A DNA stretch of 64,000 nt, from contig NZ_CP048103.1 in assembly GCF_013282215.1 (NCBI RefSeq), forward strand, positions 1,364,001-1,428,000, read 5' to 3'. Position numbers and translations under genes: made by a program. The notes under the pieces were generated by a model. The model was not told the origin of the DNA. It did no database searches and was given only the letters and a program-made list of their open reading frames with translations. Each line of letters starts with the position of its first letter. Position 1 is the first letter of the stretch. Positions 10,926-40,744 of this stretch are shown here, piece after piece. The DNA comes from Kroppenstedtia eburnea. GTDB taxonomy: Bacteria; Bacillota; Bacilli; Thermoactinomycetales; DSM-45169.

Positions 10926-11116
10926 AAGAAGCATTGTGAAAAAGCCATTCATACCCATAGGGTACAAGTCTCGCCAAGGTCACTCCGTTCTCGGCCTCGC
11001 TATGTAGGGAGGGTTGGGTTTCGCATGGAGTGATTTTGGATCGTAAGAACAACGAAAACGACATGTGAAACCCAATCCCGACCGCCTTCAAACCGCAGTA
11101 AATCACAACGCTTCAA
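10926..11116 (+). repeat. Dispersed palindromic repeat, copy R1 (type A ends)
   Basis: Outer inverted ends AAGAAGCATTGTGA and TCACAACGCTTCAA flank an inner palindrome with arms close to GGGTTTCACATG and CATGTGAAACCC (about 11014-11074). The left half carries an extra segment of about 56 bases (starting near CCCATAGGGTACAAGTC) shared with R3. It is non-coding and lies in the gene-free stretch after the DJ-1 gene. Confidence 0.85.
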
Positions 11117-11301: not shown

Positions 11302-11438
11302 CTAGAAGCATTGTGAAAAAGTCCTTCAAAGGGAGGGGTGGGTTTCACATGGAGTGATTTTGGATCGTAAGAACAACGAAAACGAGATGTGAAACCCAAT
11401 CCCACCGGCCATGAACGCATAAATCACAATGCTTCTAG
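11302..11438 (+). repeat. Dispersed palindromic repeat, copy R2 (type A ends, minimal form)
   Basis: This is the cleanest copy, 137 bases. Perfect 15-base outer inverted ends CTAGAAGCATTGTGA (11302-11316) and TCACAATGCTTCTAG (11424-11438) enclose the inner palindrome GGGTTTCACATG ... GATGTGAAACCC with the asymmetric centre GAGTGATTTTGGATCGT. It lacks the extra left segment of R1 and R3. The palindrome-in-palindrome layout and absence of coding capacity fit a MITE-like element. Confidence 0.9.
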
Positions 11439-37251: not shown

Positions 37252-38631
37252 TCAGATGAGATCCCGGCGCAGCCACTTGGGGTAGTGGTTTTTCAGCAGA
37301 CCGCTGGAGACTTTGCCCCAACCGAGAGGAAATCCGTCCACTGTGACCAGGGTCCATCCCTGATCCCCGTCGGTGGGGATGGTTTCCCCGCGCAGATATT
37401 GGTTCAACTGATCCTCCTCCGACGTGAAAGAGATGCTCCGTCGCACAGAACCGGAGGTGAGGGACAAGGCGAGGGCATGAGAAGGGGCGAAGTGTTTTCG
37501 CTTGGCCTGCCCCAGATGAAGTCCCGGCCGCTCCACGATCAGGCCCTTGAGAGAAGGCAGATCGGCGGGGACTTGGTAAAGATGGTCACCGAACAAAGTG
37601 AACGGACCGGGGAATCTGTCTTCGAGCAGCGTCTCCCGCAGGAATTCACTGAAAACCCTTTTGGCATCGCCGTGTACAGGAGGAAGTTTTCCCGGTTTGT
37701 GGCGGGCTCCTTCTTCCCCGTCCCTTTTCTCCAGCACCGCCACAAAGTGACCCTCCCCTTTCAAGTGGTGGGGCCAGAGACGGGCCCCTTTGGCCAGAGT
37801 GGGGGAAGCATCGATCCAATCGGGCCGGGCAGGCCGGTAGTGGGCGGCCTGGGGAACCTGCCCCGGGGTGAAGTGGGGGTGTTGATGGAGAAAGCGTTGG
37901 AGTACCCCCTCGTTTTCCCGTGGGTTGAAGGTGCAAGTGGAATAGACCAGTCGGCCGCCGGGACGGAGCATCGGTGCCGCCGCCTCCAGGATGGAGAGTT
38001 GCAGTTCGGCGGCCGCTTCTGTGGAACGGTGGCTCCAGCGCTCCCGTGTGTCCGGATCCTTTCGGAACATGCCTTCCCCGGAGCAGGGGGCATCGATCAA
38101 AATCCGGTCAAACCAGCCGGTGAAGCGGGTGGAGAGGTGACGGGGGTCCTCCCCCAAGATGAGGGCGTTGGGTACTCCACACCGTTCCAGATTTTCCACC
38201 AGGGTTTTACGTCGTTCTTTGCTGATCTCGTTGGCGACCAAAATGCCTTTTCCCTTCATGTGGGCGGCAATCTGGGTCGTCTTGCCCCCGGGGGCGGCAC
38301 AGAGGTCGAGAATTTTCTCCCCCGGCCGGGGTTGGAGTGCCTCCACCGGGGCCATGGCACTGGGGTCCTGGATATAGTAGAGCCCGGCGGCATGATAGAC
38401 ATGCTTGCCGGGACGGTCCCGGTCATGATCATAGAAAAAACCGGTATCGCACCAGGGGACAGGCTCCAGCCGGAAGGGAAGGCGCTGTCTTCCTTCCGCC
38501 ACGGACAGTTTCAATGTGTTGATCCGAAGCCCCCGGTGAGGCGGGTCGTCATAGGTCCGGATGAAGACCGGGTACTCCTCTTCCAGCAGCTCCCGCATCT
38601 GTTTCTGATAATCTTCGGGAAGTCGGTTCAC
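37252..38631 (-). CDS. RsmF/NSUN-type rRNA (cytosine-C5) methyltransferase
   Basis: The 459-residue protein has an N-terminal substrate domain, a Rossmann SAM domain (VLDLCAAPGGKTTQIA-like ILDLCAAPGGKTTQIAAHM; GILVANEIS), the catalytic motifs IDAPCSGEGMFRKD and VYSTCTFNPRENE (two Cys) and a C-terminal RNA-binding extension ending in a PUA-like/FAE part (GWTLVTVDGFPLGWGKVSSGLLKNHYPKWLRRDL). It should make m5C in 16S rRNA. Length and C-terminal domain fit the RsmF/YebU branch rather than RsmB. A long antisense frame on the plus strand is a shadow. Confidence 0.9.
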   Translation of the reverse strand: MNRLPEDYQKQMRELLEEEYPVFIRTYDDPPHRGLRINTLKLSVAEGRQRLPFRLEPVPWCDTGFFYDHDRDRPGKHVYHAAGLYYIQDPSAMAPVEALQPRPGEKILDLCAAPGGKTTQIAAHMKGKGILVANEISKERRKTLVENLERCGVPNALILGEDPRHLSTRFTGWFDRILIDAPCSGEGMFRKDPDTRERWSHRSTEAAAELQLSILEAAAPMLRPGGRLVYSTCTFNPRENEGVLQRFLHQHPHFTPGQVPQAAHYRPARPDWIDASPTLAKGARLWPHHLKGEGHFVAVLEKRDGEEGARHKPGKLPPVHGDAKRVFSEFLRETLLEDRFPGPFTLFGDHLYQVPADLPSLKGLIVERPGLHLGQAKRKHFAPSHALALSLTSGSVRRSISFTSEEDQLNQYLRGETIPTDGDQGWTLVTVDGFPLGWGKVSSGLLKNHYPKWLRRDLI

Positions 38632-38676: not shown

Positions 38677-38834
38677 GGTGTGTCTGATAAATCTCCGAGC
38701 CGGTCGGGATTGGGTTTCACATGTCGTTTTCGTTGTTCTGACGATCCAAAATCACTCCATGTGAAACCCAACCCTCCCTCTGTTACTCTCACAACGTCTC
38801 ACGTTCCACGGAAAATTGAATTACCGGACATACC
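38677..38834 (-). repeat. Dispersed palindromic repeat, copy R4 (type B ends, inverted)
   Basis: Outer ends GGTGTGTCTGATAAAT and AATTACCGGACATACC are an imperfect inverted pair different from type A. The inner palindrome GGGTTTCACATG ... CATGTGAAACCC (38712-38770) and centre match the other copies on the opposite strand. It lies between the rRNA methyltransferase and SelW-like genes. Confidence 0.88.
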
Positions 38835-38960
38835 CTAATCATTGTAGCAGAAGAAGTGACTCATTAAGGAAAGTCGTTCTCCTTCCGACACGCGCCCCGT
38901 TTCCTGGCAACTGTTTCAGGGATATAATGGGAAGGGACGAATACTGTGGGAGGGATGATT

Positions 38961-39209
38961 TTGGACAGGAATCACCATGTCTCCATCCAATTTTGTATGG
39001 CTTGAAATTATGCCCCTTATGCTGCCCGTGTGGCAGAAGAACTGTTCACCGAGTTTCGTCACCGGATCGCCGACATGACCTTAATCCCATCCAGCGGCGG
39101 GATTTTTGAGGTGACCGTCGATGGAGAGAAGATCTATTCCAAAAAAGAGACGGGACGGCACGCGGAAGAAGGGGAGGTCGTCCGGTTGCTGAGAGAAAAG
39201 ATCGACTGA
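38961..39209 (+). CDS. SelW/SelT/SelH-family (Rdx) protein with in-frame TGA at the CxxU position
   Basis: One frame from TTG 38961 (GGAGGG 6 nt upstream; ATG 38955 is too close to it) to TGA 39207-39209 encodes 82 residues if TGA 39003-39005 is read. Before it: VSIQFCMA; after it: NYAPYAARVAEELF, PSSGGIFEVTVDGEKIYSKKETGRHAEEGEVVRLL, the Rdx thioredoxin-like fold. The TGA falls exactly where this family has Cys or selenocysteine in CxxC/CxxU. Sixteen bases after it CTGCC-CGTGT-GGCAG can form a small hairpin with G in the loop, compatible with a bacterial SECIS. TATAAT is at 38923-38928. Either a selenoprotein or a single-base nonsense mutation of the Cys form. Confidence 0.75.
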
Positions 39210-39219
39210 GAATGGACGG

Positions 39220-39237
39220 CCGGGAATTTGTTCCCGG
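39220..39237. terminator. Short hairpin between convergent genes
   Basis: CCGGGAATTTGTTCCCGG stem after the SelW-like gene and before the end of the flavoprotein gene; T-run is weak. Confidence 0.5.
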
Positions 39238-39246
39238 TCCTTTGAA

Positions 39247-40521
39247 TTACCTGACACGCTCCAGACTTTGCAGGGCAGCATGCTTTCCCGCGGTAAAGCC
39301 CGTGCTGAAAGCGGCGGTGATGTTGTATCCCCCGGTATAGCCGTGGATATCCAGAATTTCACCGGCAAAATAGAGCCCTTGTTTCAATTTGGATTCCATC
39401 GTTTTCGGATGGATCTCTTTCAGGTGAACTCCTCCGCCGGTGACAAAAGCTTTCTCCATGGGAAGGGTTCCGTTGACCTGAAGGGGAAAAGCTTTCAGCA
39501 ATTGAAATAGTTTTTCCCATCCGGTTTTGGAGACATGGTTCCAAGTGACTTCCGGATCAAGTCCGGACCGGTGAAGAAGCAAGGGGATCGTCCGGTCGGG
39601 GAGGTGGGGTTTCAGGATGGTTTTAACCGATTTTTTCGGATGGTTTTTCCACTCCTCCCGGATGCGTGTCCGCAGTTTTTCACCTTGTTCCCCGGGAAAC
39701 CAGTCCAGCTCCAATCTGACGTGGTCCACTGCGAATTGTTGCAACGTTTTCACCACAAATTGACTGCAACGAAGGACGATCGGCCCGGAGAGACCGAAGT
39801 GGGTGAAGAGCAGATCGCCGGTGTGTTCCGTCAATTTTTTTCCCTTCGGATTGAATACAGACAGTCGGACCCCCCGCAGGGAGAGGCCCTGCCATGTCCG
39901 TTCCCGGATGAAAGGTTCATCGGAAGTGAGGGGAACTTCCGTGGGGAACAACTCCGTGATGTGATGTCCCGCCGCTTTTGCCCAGGGGTAACCGTCTCCG
40001 GTGGAGCCGGTGTGGGGGACGGATTTTCCGCCGACGGCGACCACCAGGTTGGAGGTCCGTAAAGTTTCACCACTTTGCAGCCGGAGGCCCGTCACCCGAT
40101 CAGGTGCAAACAGAAGTTCCGACACCGGGGTGTGAACGCGGATCTTCACCCCCAGTTCCCGGATTCGGCGCAACAGAGCCTCCACCACACTTTGCGCACT
40201 GTCGGAGACGGGAAACATGCGCCCGTGATCCTCCTCCTTCAGTTTCACCCCCAAATCCTCAAAAAAACGGATGATATCCCGGTTGTTAAAGGTGGCGAAG
40301 GGACTGTGTAAAAACCTGCCGTTCCCGGGAATATGACGAATGATTTCTCCGATCTCCTTGTTGTTGGTCACATTGCATCGTCCACCGCCGGATATGGCCA
40401 GCTTGCGGCCCAGCTTGTCTCCTTTGTCCAGCAAGAGTACCCGTACACCTTGTTCCGCCGCAGCCACTGAGGCCATCAAACCTGCAGGGCCGCCTCCGAT
40501 CACGATCACATCCCAAGTCAA
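39247..40521 (-). CDS. HI0933/YhiN-family flavoprotein (NAD(P)/FAD-dependent oxidoreductase)
   Basis: The 424-residue FAD protein: dinucleotide-binding VIVIGGGPAGLMASVAAAEQG, LLLDKGDKLGRKLAISGGGRCNVTN (a family hallmark), VVAVGGKSVPHTGSTGDGYPWA and the C-terminal GLYFAGEILDIHGYTGGYNITAAFSTG. The reaction of this family is not established. Start reassigned to TTG 40521, 8 nt after AGAAGGGGAG, which begins the protein at TWDVIVIGGG; the 42 upstream codons are not protein-like. It is convergent with the SelW-like gene and divergent from lcfA. Confidence 0.9.
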   Translation of the reverse strand: MTWDVIVIGGGPAGLMASVAAAEQGVRVLLLDKGDKLGRKLAISGGGRCNVTNNKEIGEIIRHIPGNGRFLHSPFATFNNRDIIRFFEDLGVKLKEEDHGRMFPVSDSAQSVVEALLRRIRELGVKIRVHTPVSELLFAPDRVTGLRLQSGETLRTSNLVVAVGGKSVPHTGSTGDGYPWAKAAGHHITELFPTEVPLTSDEPFIRERTWQGLSLRGVRLSVFNPKGKKLTEHTGDLLFTHFGLSGPIVLRCSQFVVKTLQQFAVDHVRLELDWFPGEQGEKLRTRIREEWKNHPKKSVKTILKPHLPDRTIPLLLHRSGLDPEVTWNHVSKTGWEKLFQLLKAFPLQVNGTLPMEKAFVTGGGVHLKEIHPKTMESKLKQGLYFAGEILDIHGYTGGYNITAAFSTGFTAGKHAALQSLERVR

Positions 40522-40744
40522 TGCTCTGACTCCCCTTCTGTAAATAAGAAATGAAACCCATGCGAACTTCCCGTTAAAAGAGATCCTCTCCAACGGGAAA
40601 GATCCACATTCTCGATTGTACATGAATCCATATGGACACAAAAACAAGTGTCATTTTTCAATACATGCTTTCAAAGACGGGGAAAGTTCGTTAAAATGAG
40701 AAAAAGAGATACAGGTAGGTATTCATTTTTCTTTGGCCCGGTTA

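Follow-up and report, generated by a model that had tools for sequence, protein, structure and literature searches.

An in-frame UGA probably read as selenocysteine in a selW-like gene of Kroppenstedtia eburnea

The 64,000-nucleotide stretch of the Kroppenstedtia eburnea genome analysed here (the window) contains a short forward-strand reading frame interrupted by one TGA, which raises the question of whether this codon ends a damaged gene or is read as selenocysteine (Sec). Read from the TTG at 38961, the frame is LDRNHHVSIQFCMA-TGA-NYAPYAARVAEELFTEFRHRIADMTLIPSSGGIFEVTVDGEKIYSKKETGRHAEEGEVVRLLREKID and closes at a terminal TGA (39207-39209). The resulting selW-like gene (38961..39209, + strand) specifies 82 residues including Sec, and its single internal TGA (39003-39005, + strand) is codon 15. 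One continuous 82-codon frame with a single TGA had been described in the initial annotation of this DNA, and both the sequence and the translation agree with that description. On the strength of comparative sequence data, we consider it highly probable, close to certain, that this locus encodes a functional SelW-like selenoprotein, with UGA codon 15 decoded as Sec. The frame, the family assignment, the machinery and the conservation of both the UGA and a hairpin located 3' of it are strongly supported by these comparisons; the Sec insertion itself and the redox chemistry of the product are what we infer.

The TTG at 38961 is the likely start codon, because a Shine-Dalgarno-like GGGAGG (38948..38953, + strand) lies 7 bases 5' of it and because the orthologues start with TTG, ATG or GTG at the matching place, 5' of which similar Shine-Dalgarno-like stretches are found. 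The good ribosome site reported earlier was recovered. An alternative in-frame ATG at 38955 is possible, but its spacing from GGGAGG is only 1 base. With translation table 11, the ORF listing gives just one shortened ORF of 59 amino acids in this frame, from a GTG at 39030 (39030-39209), as expected from the previous remark that gene callers would miss or shorten the gene. Indeed, a real gene is shortened wherever TGA is taken only as a stop.

Translated through the TGA, the product matches the Pfam Rdx family (PF10262) with 77.8 bits for a cut-off of 22.6, over model positions 1-73 of 74. It also exceeds the cut-offs of the NCBIfam models TIGR02174 (CXXU_selWTH; 61.6 bits versus 34.2) and NF041051 ('SelT/SelW/SelH family (seleno)protein'; 91.2 bits versus 88). 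The active-site motif Cys-Met-Ala-Sec (TGT ATG GCT TGA; 38994..39005, + strand) is of the CxxU type, and its Cys, Met and TGA positions are invariant in nine orthologues. The earlier recognition of Rdx/SelW-family sequence with a CxxU active site is thus upheld by all three profiles and by the retention of C-M-A-TGA in orthologues.

Among proteins of solved structure, a sequence search retrieved Atu0228 (2fa8), the SelW-related 2p0g, 2obk and SelW itself (2npb, mammalian selenoprotein W, sequence match E 0.0035). All of them belong to the same family by sequence. The Kroppenstedtia gene has a TGA at the second redox position, and 2fa8, 2p0g and 2obk are presumably Cys-type Rdx proteins. Mammalian selenoprotein W is a distant relative: eukaryotic SECIS elements are located in the 3' UTR, whereas the Kroppenstedtia hairpin lies inside the coding region. 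SELENOW nevertheless carries a CXXU motif as well (PMC8508763). Closer in kind are the bacterial SelW-like selenoproteins, a known and common family (PMC1794560, PMC2398784, PMC9312934) that ranks among the commonest bacterial selenoproteins, with 427 sequences in ocean metagenomes (PMC2398784), and to which Kroppenstedtia selW belongs. It shares with them the Rdx domain (PF10262), the CxxU motif, the in-frame TGA, the hairpin directly 3' and the Sec machinery in the genome; the host group, Thermoactinomycetaceae, is the only difference, and nothing differs in kind. Campylobacterota also have SelW, and some of the SelW genes were overlooked in annotation there too (PMC4607533). The Kroppenstedtia protein is likened to the SelW of this distant phylum by its score over the cut-off of the NF041051 profile (SelTWH_Campy). 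In a literature search whose coverage was incomplete and which is no proof of priority, we found no report of selenoproteins together with Thermoactinomycetaceae, Kroppenstedtia or Alkalibacillus.

A Sec codon calls for the corresponding machinery, and the initial annotation had proposed a search for selA, selB, selD and tRNA-Sec; all four are present in the Kroppenstedtia genome (G000). SelB (at 2469402) scores over its curated cut-off and comprises the domains GTP_EFTU, SelB-wing_2 and SelB-wing_3. SelA (at 2434012) reaches 609.5 bits, and SelD (at 2431964; 395.7 bits) itself contains one in-frame TGA, in SAKAG-U-GCKIG. The tRNA-Sec (at 2463883; 66.1 bits) is called tRNA-SeC with anticodon tca by ARAGORN, that is, a tRNA-Sec(UCA). 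Among the 41 genomes of the order that were searched, 10 have SelA and Sec-containing SelD over the cut-offs together with a tRNA-Sec match above 63 bits. SelW occurs in 9 of these 10 and in none of the other genomes searched. An eleventh assembly (G021, 67% complete) shows SelB only. The tenth genome, G015, has SelA, SelB, tRNA-Sec and Sec-containing SelD, and SelW is absent from it; SelW is therefore not the sole reason for the Sec trait. In G015, no TGA form over the cut-off was found among the AhpC/TSA, HesB-like or Fdh-alpha genes.

The TGA itself is conserved. Each of the nine SelW genes of the order, including that of the same-genus genome G001 (386389-386628 of its contig), has exactly one in-frame TGA, and no Cys-type Rdx protein was found in the order sample. 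A scan of named genomes gave 24 homologous loci, all 24 with TGA at the Sec codon, from organisms that include Kroppenstedtia, Melghirimyces, Marinithermofilum, Paludifilum, Alkalibacillus, Piscibacillus, Filobacillus, Pontibacillus, Thalassobacillus and Bacillus timonensis; in total, 54 distinct homologous sequences retain it. A comparison of the homologous codons had also been suggested; all close homologues that were found have TGA at this position and none has Cys. Both conditions under which the initial annotation would have given up the Sec reading, a genome lacking selABCD/tRNA-Sec and relatives with a Cys codon, turned out otherwise. Between closely related pairs, the codons 3' of the TGA have dN of 0.02-0.06 and dS of 0.09-0.37; since dN is lower than dS, this part of selW is under purifying selection. 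Such selection, with the TGA kept in 54 distinct sequences, goes well beyond chance.

These data leave almost nothing of the view that a nonsense mutation, or an error in sequencing, put the TGA into a gene of the Cys type: a lone in-frame stop in a short gene does look like a pseudogene at first sight, but the recurrence of this TGA in all close homologues and across genera, in 54 distinct sequences, the purifying selection past it and the Sec machinery in the genome led us to reject this explanation, whose probability we regard as negligible, and uphold the earlier opinion that a random pseudogene is less likely.

The survey was widened to 399 genomes sampled across the class Bacilli, in which an Rdx protein was detected in 55 and selA in 85. 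TGA-type SelW occurs in 53 of the 399, and all 53 have selA (Fisher p = 6e-44, a value that is indicative only since the genomes are related). Three Rdx matches have no internal stop, in G158 (which has no selA), in G306 (a Cys form in a selA-bearing genome) and in G042 (one Cys and one TGA form). With this frequency of selA, and with three Firmicutes/Bacillales selenoproteins from three families already tabulated by 2006 (PMC1794560), the initial remark on the rarity of Sec in Bacillales is too strong. Sec decoding is well spread among the sampled species of Bacilli, and more than half of those that bear selA have a TGA-type SelW, often adjoining selA. The function of bacterial SelW thereby becomes testable in culturable spore-formers.

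Downstream of the TGA, a SECIS-type hairpin (39022..39036, + strand) consists of the stem CTGCC/GGCAG (39022-39026 with 39032-39036) and the loop CGTGT (39027-39031), with a G at 39028. The hairpin previously proposed, CTGCC-CGTGT-GGCAG starting 16 bases downstream, was found as described and on the + strand, except that its loop G is the 23rd base past the TGA rather than 'about 22'; the distance from the TGA to the loop is 21 bases. The bacterial SECIS model requires a loop of 3-9 nt, an upper stem of 4-16 bp, a UGA-loop distance of 16-37 nt and an energy <= -7.5 kcal/mol, with a G as first or second loop base, usually followed by G or U (PMC13188914 Fig. 2). The 5-nt loop, the 5-bp stem, the early G of CGUGU and the 21 nt spacing are all within these limits, and the energy is borderline relative to the -7.5 threshold (-7.3 when the 5-bp stem-loop is taken by itself and -7.6 for a 45-base stretch in a shifted register).

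Could this hairpin merely reflect the conserved residues A-A-x-x-A-E that it encodes, so that it has no SECIS function and the UGA is decoded differently? Three of the five pairs are invariant in the first 27 distinct sequences and involve first or second positions of conserved codons, as such an origin would have it. In the same 27 sequences, however, the five pairs are formed in 99.3% of cells versus 83.9% in shuffles, 25 cells are changed on both sides versus 8.4 in shuffles, and every slid version of the stem pairs much less. Over the 54 distinct TGA sequences, the stem is perfect in 53 and the loop reads N-G-[U/G]-N-N in all 54, whereas a redraw of synonymous codons would be expected to give a perfect stem in 13%. 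At pair 2 the bases are CG or UA (with one GG), at pair 4 CG or UA, and at pair 5 CG, GC, AU or UA. Pairs 2 and 5 link third codon positions, and the switch of pair 4 from CG to UA accompanies paired Ala-to-Val and Ala-to-Thr replacements; the protein was therefore changed while the RNA pairing was kept. Mapped on a protein tree, changes on one side of a pair are about as frequent as on the other (9 and 8, 4 and 4, 5 and 5). Independent contrasts computed on the tree for the pairs that covary all point in the expected direction, although they are too few for significance. The hairpin is thus kept by compensatory changes at three pairs. Moreover, the stem is absent from two Cys-coding homologues, with TGC (L112) and TGT (L126) at the Sec position. 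Together with the synonymous redraw, these two Cys forms led us to reject coding constraint as the origin of the hairpin, to which we assign a very small probability.

A slightly less probable explanation is that the UGA is misread by a non-Sec route (as Trp or Cys), or that translation terminates there and a second peptide begins at the GTG at 39030, which lies 25 bases past the TGA and opens the 59-amino-acid ORF. Nevertheless, selW itself ends at TGA, which must therefore still be a stop in this genome. Neither variant predicts that TGA-type SelW is restricted to selA-bearing genomes, and reinitiation would cut the Cys-x-x-U motif off from the rest of the fold.

Decoding of codon 15 as Sec is hence the reading that we retain, and the earlier proposal of a SelW with a selenocysteine in a CxxU motif is backed by the machinery, the TGA conservation, the co-distribution with selA and the covarying hairpin. 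In bacteria, Sec insertion relies on SelB, which binds the hairpin and brings Sec-tRNA to the UGA. At this locus, SelB carrying Sec-tRNA(UCA) would bind the hairpin, whose loop lies 21 bases past the UGA, and codon 15 would be decoded as Sec. The product would be a thioredoxin-like Rdx/SelW protein of 82 residues whose active site reads Cys-Met-Ala-Sec. A thioredoxin-like fold is known for the Rdx/SelW family and, given this fold and the CxxU motif, the protein is most likely a small selenol/thiol redox protein in which Sec and Cys would form the reacting pair.

In most Thermoactinomycetaceae examined, selW adjoins an rsmF-like gene near an AMP-ligase/tetR/etfB block, and in the Kroppenstedtia genome analysed here its locus is about 1 Mb away from selA, selB, selD and tRNA-Sec. 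Many Bacillaceae have selW upstream of selA (the matched stretches are roughly 50 to 690 bases apart); there selD is found on the opposite strand beside selW-selA, and selB is near. This selW-selA-selD-selB linkage was observed in Bacillaceae and other Bacilli (L090-L106 and L113-L137), for example in Alkalibacillus, Filobacillus, Pontibacillus and Thalassobacillus. Linkage to the sel genes gives independent support for the Sec assignment. An arrangement in which selW immediately precedes selA, and selD and selB are close by, also suggests that SelW and Sec synthesis are functionally connected. We did not find this linkage in Bacillaceae mentioned in the literature, in a search that covered it incompletely and is no proof of priority. 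A bolder and rather doubtful idea is that in Bacilli SelW would be a core part of the Sec system, beyond a mere client, and might serve selenium metabolism itself; it draws on the same adjacency in many Bacillaceae and on the occurrence of TGA-type SelW only where selA occurs. As an example of such a role, SelW may reduce or deliver selenium for selenophosphate synthesis.

Other Sec candidates were sought in the Kroppenstedtia genome. None of its Fdh-alpha-type genes contains an in-frame TGA, so formate dehydrogenase was ruled out as a Sec protein of this genome, and no Sec forms of peroxiredoxin-like (PF00578) or HesB-like (PF01521) proteins were found in it. Both are present in relatives. 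At L139 (G001:C19:1-900) and L138 (G006:C1:2840500-2841200), HesB-like proteins (PF01521) have an in-frame TGA within YFDGIG-U-GGPRYGM, and such a protein is likely to be a second selenoprotein in a Kroppenstedtia relative. Similarly, L140 (G006:C1:990900-991900) encodes an AhpC/TSA_2-type protein whose motif HYG-U-PLC (UxxC) contains an in-frame TGA; it is a likely peroxiredoxin-like selenoprotein. G180 (G180:C30:823-1038) and G199 (G199:C12:8288-8503) each have a second Rdx copy in which two TGA codons lie in frame; these are possibly double-Sec (UxxU) forms or decayed copies. With its in-frame TGA, the SelD of Kroppenstedtia (L047, G000:C1:2431964) is itself a selenoprotein. The selD gene has, 33 nt past this TGA, a GUU-loop hairpin that agrees with the SECIS model; a nearer, stronger-looking one has no G in its loop.

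Finally, the neighbours of selW lie outside the Sec system. An RsmF-like rRNA methyltransferase gene (37252..38631, - strand) is conserved next to selW in the family. A HI0933-like flavoprotein gene (39247..40647, - strand) was not found beside selW in three relatives (L058, L062, L063), including the same-genus genome, although other neighbours were. A terminator-like hairpin 3' of selW (39218..39239, + strand) comes from a consensus scan only and is no better than shuffles can yield. A dispersed repeat with inverted ends (TTTCACATGTCGTTTTCGTTGTTC...) has three copies in the window (11047-11070, 11371-11394 and 38715-38738) and recurs at several loci elsewhere in the genome (L007, L018, L056, L081, L141); one copy lies just 5' of selW.
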